Shown: positions 1,315 to 10,237 of the stretch, one piece after another
Layout of the letters: the number at the start of each line of letters is the position of its first letter
How positions within the stretch are numbered: position 1 is the first letter of the stretch
Origin: Vulcanimicrobiia bacterium
Lineage (GTDB): Bacteria > Eremiobacterota > Eremiobacteria > Baltobacterales > Baltobacteraceae
Length of the DNA: 10,237 bases
NCBI GenBank assembly: GCA_024281135.1
Contig: JAMXLG010000278.1
Coordinates: 1-10,237, forward strand
Reading direction: 5' to 3'
The notes under the pieces: generated by a model
Database searches by the model: none
Seen by the model: the letters and a program-made list of their open reading frames with translations, nothing else
What the model was told of the DNA's origin: nothing
Made by a program: the position numbers and the translations under genes

Positions 1315-3006
1315 TTGGATCGCTTTATATCGATCTTGTCGGGCATCGCCGCGCGGGTGCAGCGGATTTGGCAGAGCCAAAATCGCCAAACGCGCATCAT
1401 ATCGGTGCTCGGCGTTTCCGTTGCGCTCGTAGGTCTTTTAGCCCTCGGGTACCTTGAGTTTGGACGTCAGCCCAGCTACGAAACGCTCTTCTCGAATCTC
1501 TCATCCGACGACGCTGCTGCCGTCACGCAGAAACTCAAGGACGACAAAGTTCCGTATCATCTCTCGAGCGACGGCAAAACGGTTTCCGTTCCTTCGCAAT
1601 ATGTGAGCGACGAGCGCGTTGCAATCGCCGGCTCGAATATGATCAAGGGCGGCGGTACCGGTTATGAGTTGTTCGATCGCACGAACTTCGGCATGACCGA
1701 CTTCCAAGAGAAGATTGCCAAGACGCGCGCGATCGAGGGAGAATTGCAGCGCACGATCAACGGACTCGATCCGGTTGAATCGTCGCGCGTCAATATCGCG
1801 ACGCCCGATCAATCGCTCTACACGTCGACGCAAGACCCCACCACGGCCTCAGTCGCAATCAAGACGAAGCCTGGACAATCGCTTTCGCCGGATCAAGTCA
1901 AAGGCATTACGTCGCTCGTCGCAAATGCGGTCGCCGGACTGAAGCCCGAGAACGTCACGATCGTCAATCAAGACGGTCAGATTCTGCTTCCCGGAGCGGG
2001 ACCGACCGGAAACGGCAGCGACGTTACGGGCCCCGATGCGCTGAAGCTCACGCAAGAACAGCTGCTCGCGAAAGAACGCTACGAATCGGCGCTGCAGCAA
2101 AGCGTTCAATCGATGCTCGACGACACGCTCGGCAAGAAACACGCCGTCGCGCGCGTTTCGACGAAGATGGATTTCGATGCGCAGTCGTCGGAGAGCAAGG
2201 TCTACGCGCCGCAAGGCACGGTGCTCTCGCAGCAGACGGAGCGCGAATCGTATAACGGAACGCAGCCGGTTCGCAATCAGGCGATCGGGGTGCCGGGAAC
2301 GACGTCGAACATCGGCACCTATCAGGCGCCGCAACAACAAACCTCCAACGGGCGTTACAACCGTTCAAAGGCGACGACGAACTACGACATCTCCGAACAG
2401 AACATCAAGCATATCAACGCTCCCGGCAAGGTGTTGCAAACGAGTGTTGCCGTACTCGTCGATTCCTCTGCGCAGCCTGCCACAGGTCCGAATGGATCGC
2501 CGCTTGCCGTCGGTGCCGCAAACGCGCAAGCCTATCAACTGACGCCGGCCAACGTGCAACAAATCCGCAACACCGTCATCGCGGCCGCGGACTTGAATCT
2601 CTCGAGCGGAGATCAGGTTTCGGTTGAAGCGATTCCGTTCAACCCGTCGGTCGTCGGAAGCGGTACTCCGTCGTCGGTCACGACAACGGTTCTCGGCATC
2701 CCGATTTGGGCGCTGATTGTGATCGGCGGTATCGCGGCGCTCGCCGGTATCGGTTTGCTCGGGATGCGCGCACGGCGCAATCAATTTGCTCCGACGATGG
2801 AGCTGCCGTCCTTCGATACGTCGCTTGCCGAGGAGCTGCCGCCGTTCGAGGAACACCCGATTCTGGAGGGCGTACCGGGAGTCGCCGCTCCGATTCGTTC
2901 CGCTGCCGATCTCACGCGCGAGCAGATGATCGAGTACGTAACGACCGTGGCTCAAGAGAACCCGGATTCGATTGCAAAACTCGTCAAACTGTGGTTGGCG
3001 GAGTAA
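1315..3006 (+). CDS. fliF: Flagellar MS-ring protein FliF
   Basis: Forms the inner-membrane MS ring, the platform for the rotor and housing of the flagellar export apparatus. 563 residues, typical for the family. There is a TM helix at about 28-47, then the YscJ/FliF ring-building region with the hallmark stretch GYELFDRTNFGMTDFQEKI and EGELQRTI, a Gln/Ser/Thr-rich periplasmic section with the FliF-specific ring domain, a second TM helix at about 462-483, and a cytoplasmic acidic tail. The tail ends in EMIEYVTTVAQENPDSIAKL, which resembles the FliG-binding segment. The start is TTG. An in-frame TAG at 1309-1311 rules out a longer form, and AAGG (1305-1308) sits 6 nt upstream. It is the first gene of the operon. 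fliE and flgBC, often found before fliF, are absent here. Confidence 0.97.
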   Translation: MDRFISILSGIAARVQRIWQSQNRQTRIISVLGVSVALVGLLALGYLEFGRQPSYETLFSNLSSDDAAAVTQKLKDDKVPYHLSSDGKTVSVPSQYVSDERVAIAGSNMIKGGGTGYELFDRTNFGMTDFQEKIAKTRAIEGELQRTINGLDPVESSRVNIATPDQSLYTSTQDPTTASVAIKTKPGQSLSPDQVKGITSLVANAVAGLKPENVTIVNQDGQILLPGAGPTGNGSDVTGPDALKLTQEQLLAKERYESALQQSVQSMLDDTLGKKHAVARVSTKMDFDAQSSESKVYAPQGTVLSQQTERESYNGTQPVRNQAIGVPGTTSNIGTYQAPQQQTSNGRYNRSKATTNYDISEQNIKHINAPGKVLQTSVAVLVDSSAQPATGPNGSPLAVGAANAQAYQLTPANVQQIRNTVIAAADLNLSSGDQVSVEAIPFNPSVVGSGTPSSVTTTVLGIPIWALIVIGGIAALAGIGLLGMRARRNQFAPTMELPSFDTSLAEELPPFEEHPILEGVPGVAAPIRSAADLTREQMIEYVTTVAQENPDSIAKLVKLWLAE

Positions 3007-4098
3007 ATGAGTTTCGACATGGAATCCCCGATCGTCAATCTTTCGGACTTCGGATCGATGCCCGAGCCGCAGTTCGGCATGCTCCCGGATCAACCGCAGA
3101 TCGAGATCTCTGGGCCGGAAAAAGCGGCGATCTTATTGATCACGCTCGGTCTCGAGCTCTCCGCGACGATTTTCAAGTTCTTGCGTCAGGACGAAGTGGA
3201 ACGCATCGTTCTCGAGATCGCGAAGATCACGACCGTTCCGATCGAGAAGCGCGACGCCGTCATTCAAGAGGCGTATCAGCGCGCGATTGCGCTCAAGTAC
3301 ATCAACGAAGGCGGCATCGAGTACGCCAAGGAGATTCTGGAGCGCAGCTTCGGCGCGGGCCAAGCCGACGACATGACGTCGCGACTGTTTGCCGCGCTCA
3401 AGCACGGCAACCCGCTCGAGCTCATCAAGAAAACCGAACCGGCGCAACTGCTCCAGTTCATCCAAGACGAGCACCCGCAGACGATCGCGCTCATCCTCGT
3501 GTACATGGCGGCAGAACAAGCCGGCGCTGTGATCTCTGCACTCGCGCCGGATCTTCAAGCCGAAGTTGCGATGCGTATCGCAATTCTGCAGAAGACCGCA
3601 CCGGAAGTGCTCGAGCAGCTCGACGAATTGCTCGGACGCCGTCTGCTCGTCAGCGGCGCTGACTTCGCGAAGGCCGGCGGCGTACAGTCGCTCGCGAACG
3701 TGATGAACTTCGTCGATCGCGAAACCGAGAAGAACATTCTCGACGGCTTAGCCAAACGCGATCCCGAACTCGCGCAAGAAGTCAAGAACTTGCTCTTCGT
3801 CTTCGAGGACATCATCAATCTCGACGATCGCTCGATCCAGCGCATCCTCAAGGAAGTGGATGGCAAAGATCTTGCGCTCGCACTCAAAGTCGCCAACGAC
3901 GAACTCCTACAGCGCGTGTACAAGAACATGTCGTCGCGCGCTGCCGTCTTGCTCAAGGAAGAGATCGAGTTGCTCGGGCCGACGCGCATGCGCGACGTCG
4001 GCAAAGCGCAACAGCAGATCGTCGACGTCATTCGTACTATGGAAGAGAACGGTCAAATCGTGATCGCCCGCGGCGCGAAAGACGAACGGCTCGTCTAA
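3007..4098 (+). CDS. fliG: Flagellar motor switch protein FliG
   Basis: Rotor protein of the C-ring. It binds the FliF tail through its N-terminal domain and converts stator ion flow to torque through its C-terminal domain. 363 residues. The core begins near residue 36 (GPEKAAILLITLG). The middle domain carries EHPQT at 155-159, and the C-terminal domain carries GGVQSLANVMNFVDRETEK and the charged torque helix LDDRSIQRILKEVDGKDL starting at 272. The end MEENGQIVIARG is typical. The first 30 or so residues are an acidic, Pro/Met-rich extension beyond most homologues, which are about 335 long. The ATG directly abuts the fliF stop codon, with GGAG at 3000-3003, so translation is probably coupled. 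An internal ATG at 3019 is a less likely start. Confidence 0.97.
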   Translation: MSFDMESPIVNLSDFGSMPEPQFGMLPDQPQIEISGPEKAAILLITLGLELSATIFKFLRQDEVERIVLEIAKITTVPIEKRDAVIQEAYQRAIALKYINEGGIEYAKEILERSFGAGQADDMTSRLFAALKHGNPLELIKKTEPAQLLQFIQDEHPQTIALILVYMAAEQAGAVISALAPDLQAEVAMRIAILQKTAPEVLEQLDELLGRRLLVSGADFAKAGGVQSLANVMNFVDRETEKNILDGLAKRDPELAQEVKNLLFVFEDIINLDDRSIQRILKEVDGKDLALALKVANDELLQRVYKNMSSRAAVLLKEEIELLGPTRMRDVGKAQQQIVDVIRTMEENGQIVIARGAKDERLV

Positions 4099-4107
4099 GA
4101 ACGATCG

Positions 4108-4977
4108 ATGGGCAAAGTCGTTAAATCCGCGCGCTTCGTCGAACAGAAGTACTCGATCGGCGTGCCCGCTGTCGACTCAGTGGCGCCTGCTCCGCCGGTC
4201 GGCGAATTCGGCGACGCGTTTGCTCCTGCATACTTTGCTCCGCCTTCAAACGGATCGACGAACGGATCGAGCAACGGCGTGCACGTGGCCGAGCCAGAAA
4301 TGTATGCCGAGCCCGTTCCGCAGATCGATTGGGAAGCGCTGCGCGCGGATGCCGAAGCGATCGTAGATCGCGCGGCAGCCGACGCGGAGACGCTGATCAA
4401 ACAGGCAGAAAGCACCGCGCTCGAGATGGTCGAGTCGGCGCAAGCACGTGTTGCGGAGATCGAAGAGCAAGCCCGAAACAACGGCTATCGAGAAGGCTTT
4501 GAAAAGGGCCATGCTGCCGCGGTCGACGAGCTCGATCCCGTCATTCGCACGATGCGCGAATTGATCGAAGGTGTTCGCTCGCAACGCGAAGCGGTCATTG
4601 CAAGCGCCGAACCAGAACTCGTGCGACTCGCCCTGGCGATTGCCGAGCGCATTGTACACACTGAGGTCGCGAACAACCGGCAAGTCGTCGTCGAGAACGT
4701 TCGCTCGGCGCTCACGCGTCTGGTCACCCGCGAGGTCGTGACCTTGCGCGTCAATCCCGCCGATCACGAAACGATTCGTCAGTATCGCGATTCAATCGTC
4801 GCCGCTAGCGACATGGAACAATTGCGCATCGTGGAAGATAAGCGCGTCGACCACGGCGGCGTCATCGTCGAAACCGACGCGGGCACGATCGACGCGAAGA
4901 TTGCCACGCAGTTGCGCGAAGCGAAGCGTGCGATTTTAACCGACGAAGCACTGGCGCTCGATCCGCCCGAAGTATAG
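4108..4977 (+). CDS. fliH: Flagellar assembly protein FliH (export ATPase regulator/stator)
   Basis: Peripheral-stalk-like partner of the FliI ATPase, which it holds at the export gate and regulates. 289 residues. The N-terminus MGKVVKSARF resembles the usual FliH start. It is followed by a low-complexity Pro/Asn/Gly/Ser linker (NGSTNGSSNG), then a long Ala/Glu-rich helical segment (about 75-150, AEAIVDRAAADAETLIKQAE) and the conserved FliH/V-ATPase-E-like C-terminal domain. That domain includes LVRLALAIAERIVHTEV, LRVNPADHE and VDHGGVIVETDAGTIDAKI. It begins 9 nt after fliG and ends 2 nt before fliI. No good Shine-Dalgarno sequence is visible, so coupling to fliG is likely. The family assignment rests on both the C-terminal motifs and gene order. 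Confidence 0.93.
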   Translation: MGKVVKSARFVEQKYSIGVPAVDSVAPAPPVGEFGDAFAPAYFAPPSNGSTNGSSNGVHVAEPEMYAEPVPQIDWEALRADAEAIVDRAAADAETLIKQAESTALEMVESAQARVAEIEEQARNNGYREGFEKGHAAAVDELDPVIRTMRELIEGVRSQREAVIASAEPELVRLALAIAERIVHTEVANNRQVVVENVRSALTRLVTREVVTLRVNPADHETIRQYRDSIVAASDMEQLRIVEDKRVDHGGVIVETDAGTIDAKIATQLREAKRAILTDEALALDPPEV

Positions 4978-4979
4978 CG

Positions 4980-6302
4980 ATGGCGCTCGACACGCACGCA
5001 TTCTCCGCCGAACCCTACCTCGAAGTCTTGCGCGGTGCCGATCTGGTTCGCCAGTACGGTAAAGTCCGTCAAGTAATCGGCGTCGTCATCGAAAGTCTCG
5101 GTCCGAACATGGCTGTCGGCGAAACATGCGAGATTTCGTACAAGCGCACCGCCGAACCGGTCCTCGCAGAAGTCGTCGGCTTCCGCGATAATAAAGTGCT
5201 GATCATGCCGCTCGGCGAGTTGGAAGGCATCGGCGCCGGCAGCGATGTCGTTGCGCACGGCGCGCCGCTCGAAATCGGCGTCACGGATCATTTGCTCGGC
5301 CGCGTGCTCAACGGCTTGGGACGGCCGATGGACGGTAAAGGCACGATCGTTGCGGACAATCGCGCGGTGGTCACCGCGCCACCGCCACCGCCGCTTTCTC
5401 GCCGTCGCGTGACGGAGCCGCTTTCGCTCGGCATTCGCGCAATCGACGGCATACTGACGTGCGGCAAAGGCCAGCGCGTCGGCGTGTTCGCGGGCTCGGG
5501 CGTCGGCAAGTCGACGATCCTCGGCATGATTGCGCGCGACACGGCCGCCGACGTCAACGTCATAGCGCTAGTCGGCGAGCGTGGTAAAGAAGTTCGTGAT
5601 TTCATCGAACGTGACTTAGGTGAAGAAGGGCTGCGCCGCAGCGTCGTGGTCGTTTCAACGAGCGATCAGCCTGCGCTCGTGCGCATCAAAGCCGCATTCG
5701 TCGCCATGACGATCGCGGAGTATTTCCGCGATCAAGGTCTCGACGTGATGTTCATGATGGACTCAGTGACGCGATTTGCGATGGCGCAGCGCGAAGTGGG
5801 TTTGGCCATCGGCGAGCCGACGACGACGCGTGGATACACGCCGTCCGTTTTTGCACTGCTGCCGAAACTGCTCGAACGCGCCGGCACGTCGGAACGCGGC
5901 ACGATCACCGGTCTCTTCTCGGTTCTTGTCGACGGTGACGATATGAACGAACCTGTTGCCGATGCCGTGCGCTCGATTCTCGACGGGCACATCGTGCTTT
6001 CGCGCCAACTCGCGTCGGCAAATCATTATCCGGCGATCGACGTGCTGCAAAGCGTGAGCCGCGTCATGCCCGACGTGACGGACGCCAACCATTATTCCGC
6101 TGCGTCCGCGATTCGCGACGTCCTCGCGACCTATCGCGAAGCCGAAGACTTGATCAATATCGGCGCGTACGTGCCGGGAAGCAATCCCCGCGTCGATCAC
6201 GCGCTCTCGAAGATCGAAGCGGTGCGTCATTTTCTCAAGCAGGGCATTTATGAAACGAGCTCTTACGAGAACACGATCGCGCAGCTCATGGGTGTTGCAT
6301 GA
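4980..6302 (+). CDS. fliI: Flagellum-specific export ATPase FliI
   Basis: Hexameric ATPase that powers or primes export of flagellar subunits through the type III apparatus, at the cytoplasmic face of the membrane. 440 residues, a typical length. The Walker A motif AGSGVGKST is at 171-179 with Lys177. It is followed by LVGERGKEVRDFIE, the Walker B region LDVMFMMDSVTRFAMAQREV, GEPTTTRGYTPSVFALLPKLLERAG and GDDMNEPVADAVRSILDGHIVLSR. The last two separate the FliI/YscN group from F1 beta subunits. The flagellar context excludes a virulence type III ATPase. The start is ATG 2 nt after fliH. The 3' end overlaps fliJ by 4 nt (ATGA at 6299-6302), indicating translational coupling. Confidence 0.98.
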   Translation: MALDTHAFSAEPYLEVLRGADLVRQYGKVRQVIGVVIESLGPNMAVGETCEISYKRTAEPVLAEVVGFRDNKVLIMPLGELEGIGAGSDVVAHGAPLEIGVTDHLLGRVLNGLGRPMDGKGTIVADNRAVVTAPPPPPLSRRRVTEPLSLGIRAIDGILTCGKGQRVGVFAGSGVGKSTILGMIARDTAADVNVIALVGERGKEVRDFIERDLGEEGLRRSVVVVSTSDQPALVRIKAAFVAMTIAEYFRDQGLDVMFMMDSVTRFAMAQREVGLAIGEPTTTRGYTPSVFALLPKLLERAGTSERGTITGLFSVLVDGDDMNEPVADAVRSILDGHIVLSRQLASANHYPAIDVLQSVSRVMPDVTDANHYSAASAIRDVLATYREAEDLINIGAYVPGSNPRVDHALSKIEAVRHFLKQGIYETSSYENTIAQLMGVA

Positions 6303-6754
6303 AGAAGTTCGTCTTCACCCTCCAGCCCGTGCTCGATCAGCGTCAACGCGTCGAAGACGAGAAGCAACAAATCGTCGCGCAGCGCCGGCGCTCGCTCGAC
6401 GAAGCGGAAGGCGAATTGGGGCGTCTCAACAACGAGTTTCGTAAGAGTAGCGAGCGCCTGCGTACGGCGCATCGCGGACTGAGCGCGGAAGAACTGCGCC
6501 TGCACTACGCGCATTTGTCGTTTCTCGATCGCACGATCGTCGCGCAGATTCAAATCGTTGCCGAACGGCGCGTTGCGCTCGATCGCGCGCGTGCGGATTT
6601 ACTTGCCGCAAGCAAAGAACGCAAGGTGGTCGAGAAGCTCAAAGACCGGCGCCATGAAGCGTACGTCGCCGAAGCGGCGCGCATCGAACAGAATGCATTG
6701 GATGACAGCAACGCGCGCCGCCACGCGCGACGAATAGTAGGAGGTATCCCGTGA
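6299..6754 (+). CDS. fliJ: Flagellar export protein FliJ
   Basis: Small coiled-coil protein, the gamma-subunit-like stalk of the FliI ring, which links it to the export gate and helps recycle export chaperones. 151 residues. The start MKKFVFTLQPVLDQRQRVEDEK closely follows the family pattern of a short hydrophobic patch followed by L-x-x-VL-x-x-R. The rest is almost entirely charged, Arg/Glu/Ala-rich and helical with no membrane segment, consistent with the antiparallel coiled coil. The primary sequence is weakly conserved in this family, so position directly after fliI, length and composition carry much of the weight. The ATG overlaps the fliI stop, and the TGA overlaps the GTG of the next gene. 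Confidence 0.92.
   Translation: MKKFVFTLQPVLDQRQRVEDEKQQIVAQRRRSLDEAEGELGRLNNEFRKSSERLRTAHRGLSAEELRLHYAHLSFLDRTIVAQIQIVAERRVALDRARADLLAASKERKVVEKLKDRRHEAYVAEAARIEQNALDDSNARRHARRIVGGIP
6739..6745 (+). promoter_or_regulatory. Strong Shine-Dalgarno for the MotE-like gene
   Basis: AGGAGGT lies within the last codons of fliJ, 5 nt before the GTG at 6751. It is the best ribosome binding site in the flagellar operon. It fixes the GTG start, which otherwise overlaps the fliJ stop as GTGA. Confidence 0.85.
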
Positions 6755-7419
6755 TCGTTACCCGCCAGCGGCGCAAACCGTTTCCGTGGAAGCGATGGGT
6801 TTTGCCGGTCATAGCGATCGCGCTTGTAATTTTCGCATTCTTGTGGGCGCCTTCGCGTAGTGTGATCGCAAATGGTCCGCTCGCTCCGGCGTGGCGCGCT
6901 TCGGGAAGCGTATTCGATGCGGTCTCGAAGCCGTTCAACTTCGCGGCGCAGAACGAAATGCTGACGGAGAAGAACAAGCAGATTCTCGCGTTGCAAAAAC
7001 AGATCGGCGATCTGCAATCACAAGCTACGGGGAAGGACAAGAAAATCGGCGACCTGAGCGGGCAGGTTCAGCAACTCCAGCTCCAGGCTACCAACCCGAA
7101 AGCTCAGCCAGTCCCCAAAGCGAGCGCGCCGGCAACACAAGCCGATGCGTCTACTGCGTCGGGAAGCAGCTTTGGATCGCAGGCTTCGACGGGCAGCGAT
7201 CTCACGCAGGGCGCTTCGCCCGATATGCGGCGCACGGCTGGGTACTGGGGCAACATGGAGCCGGAAAACGCGGCGAAATTGATTCAGCGATTGCCGGTGC
7301 CGTACGTTGCGCACATTCTCGCGCTCATGTCGCCCGACAACGTCGGCGCGATCCTCGATGCGCTTCCGGCGGCCTACGCCGCCAAGCTGACGCAGGATCA
7401 CCCCGAGCTGAAAAAGTAA
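6751..7419 (+). CDS. MotE/YlxF-like flagellar membrane protein
   Basis: 222 residues. After a basic N-terminus there is one TM helix (about 16-33, WVLPVIAIALVIFAFLW), then a coiled coil (about 67-113, rich in Lys/Gln/Leu heptads). A Pro/Ala/Ser/Thr/Gly-rich linker follows, and a compact C-terminal domain begins near residue 165 (YWGNMEPENAAKLIQRLP, then LMSPDNVGAILDALP). That domain has the MEPEKAA-x-x-L / M-x-x-x-x-A-x-IL-x-x-L repeat of MgtE N-terminal-like domains. This architecture and the place directly after fliJ match YlxF, the MotE family of flagellar operons, a poorly understood group thought to assist motor or stator assembly. fliK, which often follows in such operons, is absent. 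The family is probable and the exact role unknown. Confidence 0.83.
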   Translation: MIVTRQRRKPFPWKRWVLPVIAIALVIFAFLWAPSRSVIANGPLAPAWRASGSVFDAVSKPFNFAAQNEMLTEKNKQILALQKQIGDLQSQATGKDKKIGDLSGQVQQLQLQATNPKAQPVPKASAPATQADASTASGSSFGSQASTGSDLTQGASPDMRRTAGYWGNMEPENAAKLIQRLPVPYVAHILALMSPDNVGAILDALPAAYAAKLTQDHPELKK

Positions 7420-7423
7420 ACGC

Positions 7424-7440
7424 GGGGCCATCTTGGCCCC
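7424..7440 (+). promoter_or_regulatory. Perfect hairpin covering the trpE start codon
   Basis: GGGGCCA-TCT-TGGCCCC is a perfect 7-bp, GC-rich inverted repeat with a 3-nt loop. The TTG start of trpE (7433-7435) begins in the loop and continues into the right arm, and the only G-rich ribosome-binding candidate (7424-7427) is in the left arm. No T-run follows, so it is not a canonical intrinsic terminator. It could limit trpE translation unless a ribosome finishing the upstream gene (stop at 7417-7419) opens it. The structure is certain as sequence; the function is inferred. Confidence 0.5.
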
Positions 7441-8773
7441 GTTCATCGTTCGCACGCGCACGCTTCCAGCCGACGTTCTGACGCCGATCGGCGCATATCT
7501 CGCGCTCGCAAGGCCGGGCGCGTCGTGCCTGCTCGAGAGTGTCGAGCACGGTGGCAAGCTCTCGCGCTACACATTCATCGGCCTCGACTATCTGACGACG
7601 GAGTCGTTCGATGCGTCACCCGATCTCTACGAGCGCATTCGCTCGTTCGTTGAATCCTATCGTCCCCTCGACGAAACAGGTCTCGGCGGCTCGCTCGTCA
7701 TCTTTGCATACGACGCCGCGCGGCCGATGGCGCACTTGGCGCGCCGTGAAGCGAGCATCCCGGCAATGCCCGACGCCGTTGTTGCCATCCCCAGCACGTG
7801 GCTGATCTTCGATCATCTCACGCATTCACTGGTCTTATGGGGTTGTGGCAATCGCGCAGCCGAAATCGACGAGCGGCTCGCCGAGTACGTCGCTGCGCTT
7901 ACCGGAAACGCGCCGCGCCTCGCGGCTCCGGTGCGTGCGCGAGGACTCGTTGGGGCAACGATGGATCGCGAAACGTATCTCAGCAAAGTCGCGCGCGTCA
8001 AACGCTATATTTACGACGGTGAAGTCTACCAACTGCAGCTCGGTATCCGCTTCAATGCAGAACTCGAAGGAACGCCGTTCGACCTCTACCGCGCGCTTCG
8101 CCGGCGCAATCCTTCGCCGTATATGTTTTACGTCGACACGGAGTTCGGGCAATTGCTCGGGGCATCGCCCGAGTTTCTGGTACGCCTCGAAGGACGCAAG
8201 GCGCGCATCCGTCCGCTCGCAGGAACGCGCTCGCGCGGTGCGACCGAGAAACTCGATACGGATATTGCTGAGGAACTTCTCTCAAACGAGAAAGAGCGAG
8301 CCGAACACGTCATGCTTGTAGATCTCGGGCGTAACGATCTCGGCATGGTCTGCGAATTTGGAAGCGTGGAAGTCGACGAGCTGCTGCAAATCGAACGCTA
8401 CAGCCACGTGATGCACATCGTATCGGACGTCGTCGGAAGCCTCCGCGATGAATGCGACGGTCTCGATCTCTTCCGCGCGGGGTTCCCCGCCGGTACGGTG
8501 ACCGGCACGCCGAAGGTGCGCGCAATGCAACTCATCGACGAGCTGGAACCGGTCACGCGGGGCTTCTACGCAGGCAGCATCGGCCGCTGGAATTGGAACG
8601 GCGACTTCGATTCGTGCATCACGCTGCGCAGCATGCACGTGCAGGGCGGACGAGCGTACTGGCAAGCGTCGGCGGGGATCGTTGCTGATAGTGATCCGGA
8701 GGCCGAGTACGAAGAAGTCTTACATAAAACGCGCATTGCGCGCGAAGTTTTGAGCGTGGAGTTCATGGGATAA
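7433..8773 (+). CDS. trpE: Anthranilate synthase component I
   Basis: Converts chorismate with ammonia (from TrpG) to anthranilate, the first step of tryptophan synthesis. 446 residues, shorter than many TrpE (about 500) but with all core blocks. These are LLESVEHGGKLSRYTFIG (33 on, including the LLES element linked to Trp feedback), GEVYQLQLGIRF, NPSPYMFYVD, RPLAGTRSRG, LVDLGRNDLG, ERYSHVMHIVSD (His325), FPAGTVTGTPKVRAM and SAGIVADSDPEAEYEE. Ala263 in PLAGT is the TrpE state. PabB usually has Lys there (PIKGT), so aminodeoxychorismate synthase is less likely. TGTPK replaces the common SGAPK. The TTG start is the only usual start codon after the in-frame TGA at 7409-7411, and no clear Shine-Dalgarno sequence is present. 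It lies 13 nt behind the flagellar genes. Confidence 0.9.
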   Translation: MAPFIVRTRTLPADVLTPIGAYLALARPGASCLLESVEHGGKLSRYTFIGLDYLTTESFDASPDLYERIRSFVESYRPLDETGLGGSLVIFAYDAARPMAHLARREASIPAMPDAVVAIPSTWLIFDHLTHSLVLWGCGNRAAEIDERLAEYVAALTGNAPRLAAPVRARGLVGATMDRETYLSKVARVKRYIYDGEVYQLQLGIRFNAELEGTPFDLYRALRRRNPSPYMFYVDTEFGQLLGASPEFLVRLEGRKARIRPLAGTRSRGATEKLDTDIAEELLSNEKERAEHVMLVDLGRNDLGMVCEFGSVEVDELLQIERYSHVMHIVSDVVGSLRDECDGLDLFRAGFPAGTVTGTPKVRAMQLIDELEPVTRGFYAGSIGRWNWNGDFDSCITLRSMHVQGGRAYWQASAGIVADSDPEAEYEEVLHKTRIAREVLSVEFMG

Positions 8774-9355
8774 ATGCCGGCCAGCATTCTTTTCATCGAT
8801 AACTATGACAGCTTCACGTACAACGTAGTGCACTTGCTTGCATCACAAGGCGTGAAGCCGGTAGTGCTTCTCAACGACGATGAACGGCTCGTCCCGGAGC
8901 TTCTCGACGATTATGTAGCACTGGTCGTCGGGCCAGGACCGGGAAATCCGTCGCAGCAGCCGCGCATGATGAGCATCTTGCGCGCCGCGATCGACCGCGG
9001 AATGCCGACCTTCGGGGTTTGCCTCGGCCTGCAGTCGATCGGTGAGGCGATGGGTGGGCGCGTCACACACGCTCCGGCGCAAATGCACGGCAAGACGAGC
9101 GAAATCGAACACGACGCCAGCGGCATCTTCTTGGGACTACCGTCGCCGTTCGTCGCGACGCGATACCACTCGCTCTGCGTCGATGAAGCGACACTGCCCG
9201 CAGAACTGCGCGTCACAGCCCGGAGCAAGGACGGCGTCGTTCAAGGCATCGCTCATGTTTCTAAACCCGTCTCTGCCGTGCAATTCCATCCCGAGTCGGT
9301 CCTGAGCGAGTATGGCGAGCGCATCGTGCGAAACTTTCTTGACACCCTTCCGTGA
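8774..9355 (+). CDS. trpG: Anthranilate synthase component II (glutamine amidotransferase)
   Basis: Class I glutamine amidotransferase that supplies ammonia to TrpE. The same subunit may also serve PabB in folate synthesis. 193 residues, full length. It starts with ILFIDNYDSFTYNVVHLL, followed by VVGPGPGNPSQ. The nucleophile is Cys83 in GVCLGLQSIGEAMGG, and His172 and Glu174 in FHPESVLSEYG complete the triad. RYHSL is also present. The strongly conserved CLGHQ motif reads CLGLQ here; that His is not a triad residue, so activity is probably kept. The ATG directly abuts the trpE stop codon, implying coupled translation. The last codons contain the -35 element of the next promoter. Confidence 0.92.
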   Translation: MPASILFIDNYDSFTYNVVHLLASQGVKPVVLLNDDERLVPELLDDYVALVVGPGPGNPSQQPRMMSILRAAIDRGMPTFGVCLGLQSIGEAMGGRVTHAPAQMHGKTSEIEHDASGIFLGLPSPFVATRYHSLCVDEATLPAELRVTARSKDGVVQGIAHVSKPVSAVQFHPESVLSEYGERIVRNFLDTLP

Positions 9356-9367
9356 GCGTGTTACGCT
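9339..9367 (+). promoter_or_regulatory. Sigma-70-type promoter for the trpL-aroF unit, inside the trpG end
   Basis: A perfect -35 TTGACA (9339-9344), a spacer of exactly 17 nt, then TACGCT (9362-9367) preceded by TG at 9359-9360, an extended -10. The -10 keeps T1, A2 and T6 of the consensus. The start of transcription is expected near 9373-9376, so only about 0-4 nt would precede the leader ATG at 9377. The -35 lies in trpG codons. The strong -35, spacing and extended -10 make it convincing without experimental data. Confidence 0.75.
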
Positions 9368-9376
9368 CGCCCAACG

Positions 9377-9469
9377 ATGACGACGACGAATTTCGTTGCG
9401 TGGTGGTGGCCCCTGACCGAAAGCATTTCCGGTGAGGCGTGTGTGCCATTGTCGTTGCATCGCAAATAA
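9377..9469 (+). CDS. trpL: Trp leader peptide TrpL (30 aa)
   Basis: A 30-codon ORF from ATG to TAA whose codons 9-11 are TGG TGG TGG, in the context FVAWWWPLTES. Trp codons are rare, and three in a row about ten codons into a short ORF directly before an intrinsic terminator is the mark of trp leader peptides (for example WW at 10-11 in Escherichia coli). It is longer than the 14-residue E. coli peptide. The extra tail places the stop where a terminating ribosome would cover the antiterminator arm. No Shine-Dalgarno sequence precedes the ATG, and the predicted transcription start is within a few bases, so translation may be leaderless. It follows trpG by 21 nt in the same frame. Its function would be as a sensor of charged tRNA-Trp; the peptide itself need not act. 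Confidence 0.9.
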   Translation: MTTTNFVAWWWPLTESISGEACVPLSLHRK

Positions 9470-9491
9470 CGCGAGAGTTTAAGGAATCGAC

Positions 9492-9526
9492 AAGGCCGCC
9501 CGGAGCACCGGGCGGCCTTCGTTTTT
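9492..9526 (+). terminator. Rho-independent terminator of the trp attenuator
   Basis: A perfect 12-bp stem: AAGGCCGCCCGG (9492-9503), loop AGCA, complementary arm 9508-9519, then CG and five T (9522-9526). It stands only 16 nt before the aroF start codon, so it can block aroF unless relieved by the upstream antiterminator. It could also end read-through from trpEG. Confidence 0.95.
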
Positions 9527-9542
9527 GTTAGGGGAGAAGGAC

Positions 9543-10237
9543 ATGTACGAGTTGGCGCGGCGTGGAGCAAGTGCGGGTACCATCGTTGATGTTGGCGGCG
9601 TGCGCATCGGCGACGGCTTCATCGTGATCGCCGGACCTTGTGCGGTCGAAGACGACATTCAAATCGAAACGGTCGCGCGCGCGGTCAGCGCGCACGGCGG
9701 CGCCATGCTTCGTGGGGGTGCTTACAAGCCGCGAACGTCGCCCTATTCGTTTCAGGGACTCGGTGATGCGGGCGTCGACCTCATCGCGCGCGCATCACGC
9801 CATCACCGCTTACCGACGGTCGTCGAAGCGCTCGATTCGGAGCAATTACCGATCCTCGCGCGGACGGTGTCGATGATTCAAATCGGCGCGCGAAACATGC
9901 AAAACTTCGCGCTCGTGAAAGCGGCGGCACGAACCGGCCTCCCGCTACTGCTCAAACGCGGACCGGCCGCAACCCTAGACGAGGTGCTCTACGCCGCAGA
10001 GTACGCGCTCCTCGAAGGCAACTCAAACGTGGTGCTCTGCGAACGCGGCATCCGTGGCTTCGATCAACATACGCGCAACGTCTTCGACCTCGCCGGTGCC
10101 CTTCGGCTCAAAGAGCTCACCCATCTCCCGGTGATCGTGGACCCGAGCCACGCGACCGGCCGCCGCAGCCTCATCGCTCCGCTCGTCCTCGCCTCCGCCG
10201 CCGCAGGCCTCGACGGCGCGATGATAGAGATCCACCC
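9543..10237 (+). CDS. aroF: DAHP synthase, type I-beta, 3'-truncated by window edge
   Basis: Condenses phosphoenolpyruvate with erythrose 4-phosphate to DAHP, the entry step of the shikimate pathway. 231 codons are visible, open to the window end. The core motifs are AGPCAVE (metal-ligand Cys33), [61 protein letters not shown] (His203) and MIEIH (Glu229); the last metal ligand lies past the edge. Only 32 residues precede the Cys, against about 101 in the Thermotoga enzyme, so the N-terminal ferredoxin-like feedback domain is missing. A C-terminal fusion cannot be excluded. The ATG has GGAG (9533-9536) 6 nt upstream and sits right after the attenuator terminator, so the start is well supported. 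Expression is probably governed by tryptophan attenuation. Confidence 0.96.

Follow-up and report, generated by a model that had tools for sequence, protein, structure and literature searches.

The window, as we call the whole 10,237-nt stretch of DNA analysed here, carries, in this order, a partial purA, fliF, fliG, fliH, fliI, fliJ, a gene with an MgtE_N domain, trpE, trpG, a short leader, and aroF (Table 1); the names of fliF, fliG, and fliI come from their translations and not from a family search. AroF, a DAHP synthase, scores 299.1 bits against TIGR01361 (cut-off 267.75), also matches PF00793, and is 90% identical to a protein labelled Candidatus Eremiobacteraeota, which puts the window in Candidatus Eremiobacterota/Vulcanimicrobiota. 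An initial annotation had described a complete tryptophan attenuator with trpEG upstream and aroF as its target, and the gene order supports this assignment. Direct reading together with the TIGR01361 match also confirmed its account of a perfect 12-bp terminator followed by a ribosome binding site and aroF.

Table 1 Features of the trpEG-aroF region of the window
Feature	Position	Strand	Description and basis
trpE	7433-8773	+	Upstream of the attenuator; best NCBIfam match below cut-off, above Pfam cut-off
trpG	8774-9355	+	Upstream of the attenuator
Candidate promoter	9339-9367	+	TTGACA 9339-9344, 17-nt spacer, TG 9359-9360, -10 TACGCT 9362-9367; from sequence, inside the 3' end of trpG
Leader ORF	9377-9469	+	MTTTNFVAWWWPLTESISGEACVPLSLHRK, then stop; ATG 9377, TAA 9467-9469, 30 codons; direct reading
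Regulatory codons	9401-9409	+	TGG TGG TGG; direct reading of the leader ORF
Protector hairpin P0	9412-9437	+	CCTGACCGAAA / gca / TTT-(C)-CGGTGAGG; fold, with the AAA:TTT pairs added by eye outside the fold
Arm A, outer antiterminator strand	9429-9434	+	CCGGTG; covariation, duplex energies, folds
Arm B, inner antiterminator strand	9445-9454	+	GCC-A-TTGTCG, one bulged A
Arm B'	9488-9496	+	CGACAAGGC, overlaps the terminator 5' arm; pairing with arm B
Intrinsic terminator	9492-9526	+	Perfect 12-bp stem 9492-9503/9508-9519, loop AGCA, T tract 9522-9526
Arm A'	9506-9511	+	CACCGG, end of the terminator loop and start of the 3' arm; covariation, folds
Ribosome-binding-site-like sequence	9530-9541	+	AGGGGAGAAGGA, precedes the aroF ATG
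aroF (3-deoxy-7-phosphoheptulonate synthase)	9543-10237	+	ATG 9543; truncated by the window end

The leader ORF with its three consecutive TGG codons is present as the initial annotation had described it, the ORF at 9377-9469 and the codons at 9401-9409. Tryptophan makes up 0.49% of the residues in the ten longest expected proteins of the window, none of which contains WW, and from this frequency the chance of WWW in a given 29-codon frame is ~3e-6. The ORF is followed by the single terminator-like site in 9200-9700 (shuffles average 0.6). The locus thus has the short leader ORF with tandem regulatory codons and the intrinsic terminator between leader and structural gene that mark a trp-type attenuator.

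Two strands upstream of the terminator, arms A and B, can pair with its loop and its 5' side. The initial annotation had proposed a 9-bp antiterminator between 9445-9454 and 9488-9496; the nine standard pairs of B:B' do form, but they make up the inner helix only, and the outer helix A:A' (9429-9434/9506-9511) was missed, the annotation being silent on it as well as on the promoter and a leaderless start. When the window RNA to 9514 was folded with a ribosome stalled at the Trp codons, the minimum-energy structure was the nested antiterminator, A:A' outside and B:B' inside, at -34.2 kcal/mol. The terminator formed alone (-26.4 kcal/mol) when everything upstream of 9480 or 9483 was masked and the RNA reached 9519. 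Folding had been suggested as a check, and folds with these alternative ribosome positions gave both the antiterminator and the terminator state. In equilibrium folds of the RNA with the complete terminator, the terminator fold was more stable even when the upstream RNA was free. Because the terminator wins at equilibrium once it is complete, the switch must be kinetic, and timing matters.

We searched for relatives of the locus. A PurA search of 193 genomes across Bacteria turned up a single clear relative, G173 (63% identity), and within its phylum 135 of the 149 genomes searched had an AroF match at E<=1e-55; the best 30 of these loci, with 67-90% AroF identity to the window, were fetched. 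This identity and the common gene order indicate that the phylum of G173 is evidently also that of the window. No close relative emerged when AroF was sampled around the FCPU426 and ADurb.Bin236 genomes, and searches of viral contigs and plasmids gave distant aroF only. A short ORF rich in W and Y stands before a terminator-like GC-rich hairpin and a T run in 29/29 readable upstream regions, the thirtieth locus (L124) being a partial gene; the hairpins of L097, L098, and L111, missed by the automatic perfect-stem search, are visible by eye. The peptides contain WWW in the window clade, except L096 (WWCW), and in L102-L111, and elsewhere are of the YSYWWY, SYSYWWQ, and YWYW types, so that some clades code for Trp and others for Trp and Tyr. 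Outside the codon run the peptide differs widely between clades.

The spacing of these leaders is more constant than their peptides. In 30/30 aroF leaders, arm A follows the last W or Y codon (counting the first 16 codons) at a distance of 15-22 nt, roughly what a stalled ribosome would span. Measured from where arm A starts, the stop codon is 4 or 9 nt away in 22/30; in the window clade (8/30), it lies 35-38 nt after that start, and a ribosome there cannot mask A itself. Upstream, TTGAC[AG] is found 36-39 nt before the leader ATG in 30/30 aroF leaders (window included), which were picked by AroF similarity and not by promoter, and a -10-like TAnnnT was measured in 23 aroF leaders, where its end is 7-10 nt from the ATG. 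In leaders of all gene kinds (described below), TTGAC occurs in 62/76 and TAnnnT in 63/76, although these counts are not independent for the leaders found with the covariance model R2, which includes the promoter columns. In the window the -10 element ends 9 nt before the leader ATG and has 3/6 consensus letters, and a sigma-70 scan of the window did not list 9339-9367 among its predictions. The near-fixed distance from TTGAC-TAnnnT to the ATG would place the RNA start on the AUG or right beside it; from the promoter position, we infer a start at ~9374 in the window, 0-3 nt ahead of the leader ATG. No Shine-Dalgarno sequence was seen before this ATG, and the leader mRNA is probably leaderless, to judge from its sequence. 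A perfect inverted repeat, GAGCGT-gtt-ACGCTC, runs from the trpG stop codon into the -10 element (9354-9368); it is present in L095 and absent from L096.

Covariation of the arms was examined in an alignment of 26 aroF leaders (four near-duplicates of the 30 omitted). A:A' is paired in 92.3% of cells, vs 91.3% in shuffles (53/500 reach it) and at most 59.3% in slid controls. Two pairs are changed on both sides (59/500 shuffles), CG to UA in L113 and GC to AU in the L114 group, with GU elsewhere; for further pair types, 453/500 shuffles were as good. The covariation score (4/500) and the number of double-changed cells (3/500) stand out. The shuffles come close on most measures because arm A hardly varies among aroF leaders. 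The terminator has changes on both sides at 6/10 counted pairs. Conservation among relatives, which weighs most for the element being real, had been named as a check on the initial annotation, and the W/Y run in all 29 readable loci together with the covarying terminator and arms bears it out.

The element also stays with aroF where no trpG is adjacent upstream (for example in L103-L109, L111-L113, L115). This bears on the reading that the hairpin is a mere trpEG terminator behind which aroF has its own promoter, the ORF being spurious. The terminator does follow trpG directly in the window and in some relatives, but an element that accompanies aroF without trpG, leader codons that follow the target gene across gene kinds (below), and a TTGAC-TAnnnT at near-constant distance from the leader ATG make this reading highly improbable.

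We used two covariance models, R1 from the aroF leaders, which led to further leaders, and the broader R2; both include the window sequence, so the window's own score is by construction, and they reach leaders that resemble the training set and may miss other designs in the phylum. At E<=1e-4, R2 gave 70 matches in 53/149 genomes, and when read by eye, 69 of the 70 (52 genomes) had a leader ORF whose codons suit the gene that follows. The next genes were aroF (32, including L191, whose contig ends before the gene), proC (13), trpE and ilvB (4 each), pheA-aroF, sulfonate-binding, and CADD-fold genes (3 each), trpS and ilvE (2 each), and ilvC, pheA, and cysH (1 each); leaders of leuA, metB, and ssuD-like genes appeared at E values weaker than 1e-4. 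Representatives of proC, trpS, ilvB, ilvC, ilvE, cysH, and the SsuA-type L188 and L220 are above the curated NCBIfam cut-offs, as is the L212 fusion for its DAHP synthase part only; leuA is above the equivalog cut-off NF002086 and below TIGR00973, TrpE, pheA, metB, ssuD, and L216 have their best match below cut-off, and the remaining family genes are named by likeness. The codons follow the genes: proline makes up 28.7% of residues in proC leaders vs 5.3% elsewhere, I/L/V 40.9% of the cognate leaders vs 13.9%, and Cys plus Met 26.3% vs 3.3%.

In 202 genomes across Bacteria, R2 at E<=1e-4 found G173 alone, which is the phylum's own member; 7/202 genomes outside the phylum matched at 3.1e-4 to 0.01, and the best of these, L236, has no T tract in the stretch read. 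A model search of 864,956 bases from other taxa, spanning 80 aroF loci, reached a best E of 0.2. Within the phylum, six of 23 loci read were not attenuators (L183, L186, L187, L189, L192, L194), and among 40 loci read, L227 was without an attenuator and L213 (cysH) had a leader that is moderately convincing only. Three further loci comprised one without a leader (L241), one ambiguous (L242), and one with a plausible Cys leader (L243). A 20-bit minus-strand R2 match inside the window trpE was judged false.

What the family has in common is the pairing of the outer arm with the terminator loop. The sequences of arm and loop differ between genes and stay complementary, CCGGCGAG with CTCGCCGG in ilvC and GGATCGGT with ACCGATCC in ilvB (L200), and the five pairs that an unsupervised RNAalifold called across 29 leaders from several gene kinds all belong to A:A'. 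For quantification, 76 leaders were compiled; an automatic terminator was found in 66 (not in L175, L130, L184, L197, L205, L200, L223, L219, L231, and L234), of which 62 are distinct, and the permutation tests take the leaders without correction for relatedness. The duplex of each leader's arm with its own terminator has a mean of -13.56 vs -11.90 (sd 0.30) after permutation, with 0/2000 permutations as low. Single arms beat 95% of the terminators from other gene kinds in 13/62 cases; few stand out because many share the CCGGT core, and the signal lies in the mean. The corresponding duplex test on the stop region says nothing about the window clade, in which arm A and the stop are far apart. 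In stalled-state folds of the 62 leaders, 0.67 of the terminator top was in upstream pairs vs 0.31 with shuffled upstream RNA, and the mean energy z was -2.34, being below -1 in 50/62. Prediction and covariation thus both speak for an antiterminator that is exclusive with the terminator and favoured by the stall. In many leaders the arm CCGGTGAGG is also similar to a portion of an extended Shine-Dalgarno sequence, with GGUGA complementary to UCACC of the 16S 3' end.

P0 is predicted to sequester arm A, and in many leaders a small hairpin lies directly before the arm, its 3' side extending into the CGG of that arm. In the fold test, 57/62 leaders have 4 or more of the initial 6 nt of arm A paired (shuffled mean 3.2). 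The apical stems vary (GATG/CATC, GGTG/CACC, GAAG/CTTC, and others) and form a perfect 4-bp stem in 34/60 leaders of the apical-stem test, where 5000 permutations gave a mean of 7.0 and a maximum of 15, and in 17/37 when each combination of gene kind and right arm is counted a single time; the window's own stem scores 2/4. The energy is modest, with a mean z of -1.02 for 62 leaders. A protector hairpin that a stalled ribosome could open is thus supported by prediction and covariation, and weakly by energy alone. The 1:2 hairpin that had been described beside the TGG codons has its functional equivalent in P0, at other coordinates (9412-9437).

From these elements the following sequence of events can be proposed. 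Transcription would start within ~3 nt of the leader AUG, as the promoter spacing suggests, and a ribosome would load on the leaderless end. When tryptophan is scarce, the ribosome would stall on the UGG codons, cover the 5' side of P0, and free arm A; once RNA polymerase is past the terminator loop, A would pair with A' and B with B', and the nested hairpin would occupy half of the terminator loop along with 10 of the 12 nt in the terminator 5' arm, allowing aroF to be transcribed. When tryptophan is plentiful, the ribosome would reach the UAA at 9467 and mask the downstream RNA along with the 3' portion of arm B, preventing B:B', while P0 would reclose over arm A behind it and the 12-bp terminator would form. 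If the leader is not translated, P0 would keep arm A, and termination would be the default. We consider it very likely that the element is a ribosome-mediated transcription attenuator through which aroF rises when charged tRNA-Trp is scarce.

A textbook trp attenuator, with B:B' as the whole antiterminator, a 1:2 hairpin formed from the Trp codons, and A:A' as a coincidence, would agree with the 9 bp that B:B' reaches in the window and with a fold of 9400-9530 that pairs GUGGUG 9400-9405 with 9444-9449. However, it is A:A' and not B:B' that recurs across gene kinds, and 22/30 aroF leaders have an ORF that stops <=9 nt from where arm A begins and thus contains no arm B; we regard this version as unlikely. 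The initial annotation was therefore right about a Trp-codon attenuator before aroF and less so about its classic character, given the probable leaderless start, a stop beyond arm B, and an antiterminator that takes the terminator loop too. Likewise, it had placed the stop within footprint distance of the antiterminator arm as in the classic model: a ribosome at the UAA should indeed cover the 3' part of arm B, but with the stop at 9467 past arm B (9445-9454), the geometry of the enterobacterial trp leader is absent. T-boxes, TRAP-like proteins, and riboswitches control aromatic genes in other phyla, and one of them could in principle act here in place of a translating ribosome. As Rfam reports no regulatory family in the window at E<=1 and what is conserved is a cognate-codon ORF, we give this next to no credence. 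The sole Rfam match in the window, to a viral family, is distant and below cut-off and was judged to be chance.

In the E. coli trpL leader, as in the window, tandem Trp codons are combined with protector, antiterminator, and terminator logic. In the enterobacterial trp leader the stop lies between segments 1 and 2, and segment 3 is confined to the 5' arm of the terminator. Unlike E. coli trpL, the window element targets aroF, probably starts leaderless, has its stop at or beyond the antiterminator arms, and uses the terminator loop in its antiterminator; the Rfam model RF00513 (Trp_leader) has no match in the window at E<=1. The element is best read as a trp-type attenuator with a structural layout of its own. 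An aromatic attenuator is reportedly the subject of Neshat et al. 2014, to go by the title. Like the window, C. glutamicum aroF has an attenuator-like leader before a DAHP synthase gene, with Phe-Tyr-Phe codons where the window has Trp, a comparison that is by description and not by sequence or structure, as far as the available part of that account goes (PMC4046766).

Leaderless attenuator ORFs with cognate codons are known from Actinobacteria, among them S. lividans and, at trpE and ilvBNC, C. glutamicum. The available portions of the published accounts describe, in S. lividans, leaderless trpL1 (WWW) before trpE, trpL2 before trpS, and ilvL, leuL, and metL with cognate codons (PMC8079986), a three-hairpin attenuation model for C. 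glutamicum ilvBNC (PMC11857589), and predicted attenuators for trp, trpS, and leuS, ilvB leader peptides with terminators, and Cys-coded leaders (PMC1262725). Going by these portions, the two groups have in common leaderless cognate-codon ORFs before trpE, trpS, ilvB, and leuA (S. lividans, C. glutamicum) and the antiantiterminator/antiterminator/terminator logic, but differ in that the present leaders belong to another phylum and use one arm-and-terminator-loop architecture for many gene kinds, and in that the proC, pheA-aroF, cysH, and ssu targets are absent from the available text of the three accounts (PMC8079986, PMC11857589, PMC1262725). Among the titles and abstract openings of the best-matching literature, in which subscription journals are thinly covered, there is no Trp-coded leader before a DAHP synthase gene and no Pro-coded leader before proC; the best literature matches likewise contain, in the parts available, no report of ribosome-mediated attenuation in Eremiobacterota and no mention of the phylum name. 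A further action in trans, by the terminated leader RNA or the peptide on other mRNAs, has a precedent in the trans-acting leader peptide peTrpL reported from Sinorhizobium meliloti in the available part of PMC7298713, and the window has the matching Trp-type leader with a stable terminator. The peptide beyond the codon run is, however, poorly conserved between clades, and we think such a role here very unlikely.

The same device, with its codons swapped, appears from the sequence comparisons to be in use at roughly a dozen further amino-acid and sulfur genes of the phylum. Leaders coded for Tyr, Phe, and Trp were also seen before prephenate dehydratase-DAHP synthase fusions (L204, L206, L212, L218, L219, L224, L230, L231); family searches identify L206, L212, and L230 as fusions, with an ACT domain in L206 and L230, and a DAHP synthase domain lies downstream of L204 (G554:C42). 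In three genomes a second DAHP synthase gene lies behind a Tyr/Phe leader (L231 in G489, L230 in G490, L246 in G530) in addition to the Trp-coded aroF (L100, L101, and L099, respectively). These leaders and the mixed Tyr/Trp leaders imply that tryptophan probably sets one isoenzyme. The initial annotation had inferred that charged tRNA-Trp sets carbon entry into aromatic synthesis; the Trp-coded aroF leader agrees with this, but the Tyr/Phe-coded second enzyme and the mixed codons of several aroF leaders show the claim to be too broad. In E. coli, TrpR and TyrR make the isoenzymes of aroH, aroF, and aroG each answer to one aromatic amino acid. Control of one DAHP synthase isoenzyme by each aromatic amino acid is likely here too, by leader peptides instead of repressors (G489, G490, G530). 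The second AroF of the closest relative, G521 (L244), has no such leader in the ~360 nt read, nor do L245 and L247, and for the window organism isoenzyme-specific control is therefore not claimable. A trpE with its own Trp leader occurs in L130 (G489), L184 (G490), and L131 (G513), in the order leader-trpE-trpG-leader-aroF; before the window trpE, model R2 found no leader.

Tentatively, and at somewhat less than even chances, we propose that much of the amino-acid economy of Eremiobacterota is run by a single portable attenuator cassette, made up of a leaderless ORF, a protector hairpin, an arm with a CGG core at or near the stop, and a loop-capturing antiterminator, which was copied among genes for Trp, Tyr/Phe, Pro, branched-chain amino acids, and Cys/Met and then retuned by codon, with the DAHP synthase isoenzymes divided by codon choice and not by repressors. 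If true, ribosome-mediated attenuation would be a general amino-acid control system in this phylum, with proC, pheA-aroF fusions, cysH, and sulfonate genes as added candidate targets and an arm at or near the stop codon facing the terminator loop as an antiterminator geometry. The natural codon swaps in one scaffold would amount to a ready-made evolution experiment, and leader codons could predict roles: a Tyr-coded leader suggests tyrosine metabolism for the CADD-fold protein.

That protein, uncharacterised and of ~256 aa, follows Tyr-rich leaders (e.g. MFVLQSFAYYYYYGYFDRSR...) in L210, L214, L215, L226, and L229. Some homologues match PF14518, and Chlamydia CADD (8va9, E 2.6e-6) and PqqC are the best matches to the fold predicted for the L226 protein (pLDDT 82.9). 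CADD, a diiron enzyme, synthesises para-aminobenzoate with the use of its own tyrosine. The idea that the gene replaces TyrA was rejected, as PDH_N is over cut-off in 85/147 genomes and in 3/5 carriers of the Tyr-leader gene (G472, G479, G486).

The trpEG-aroF genes lie inside a flagellar cluster in the window (1315-10237), with fliF-G-H-I-J upstream, and in the loci L125-L135 and L139 of relatives. In 12/20 fetched loci the gene directly after aroF is a fliK-like flagellar gene; in the remaining 8 the downstream neighbours are on the opposite strand or unnamed. No trp gene was recognised behind aroF in the 12 loci with the fliK-like neighbour, where the downstream ORFs are partly identified. 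Genes of the flgD, flgE, and MotA types (Pfam, one member each) lie further downstream in several relatives, and read-through of the aroF attenuator might reach flagellar genes.
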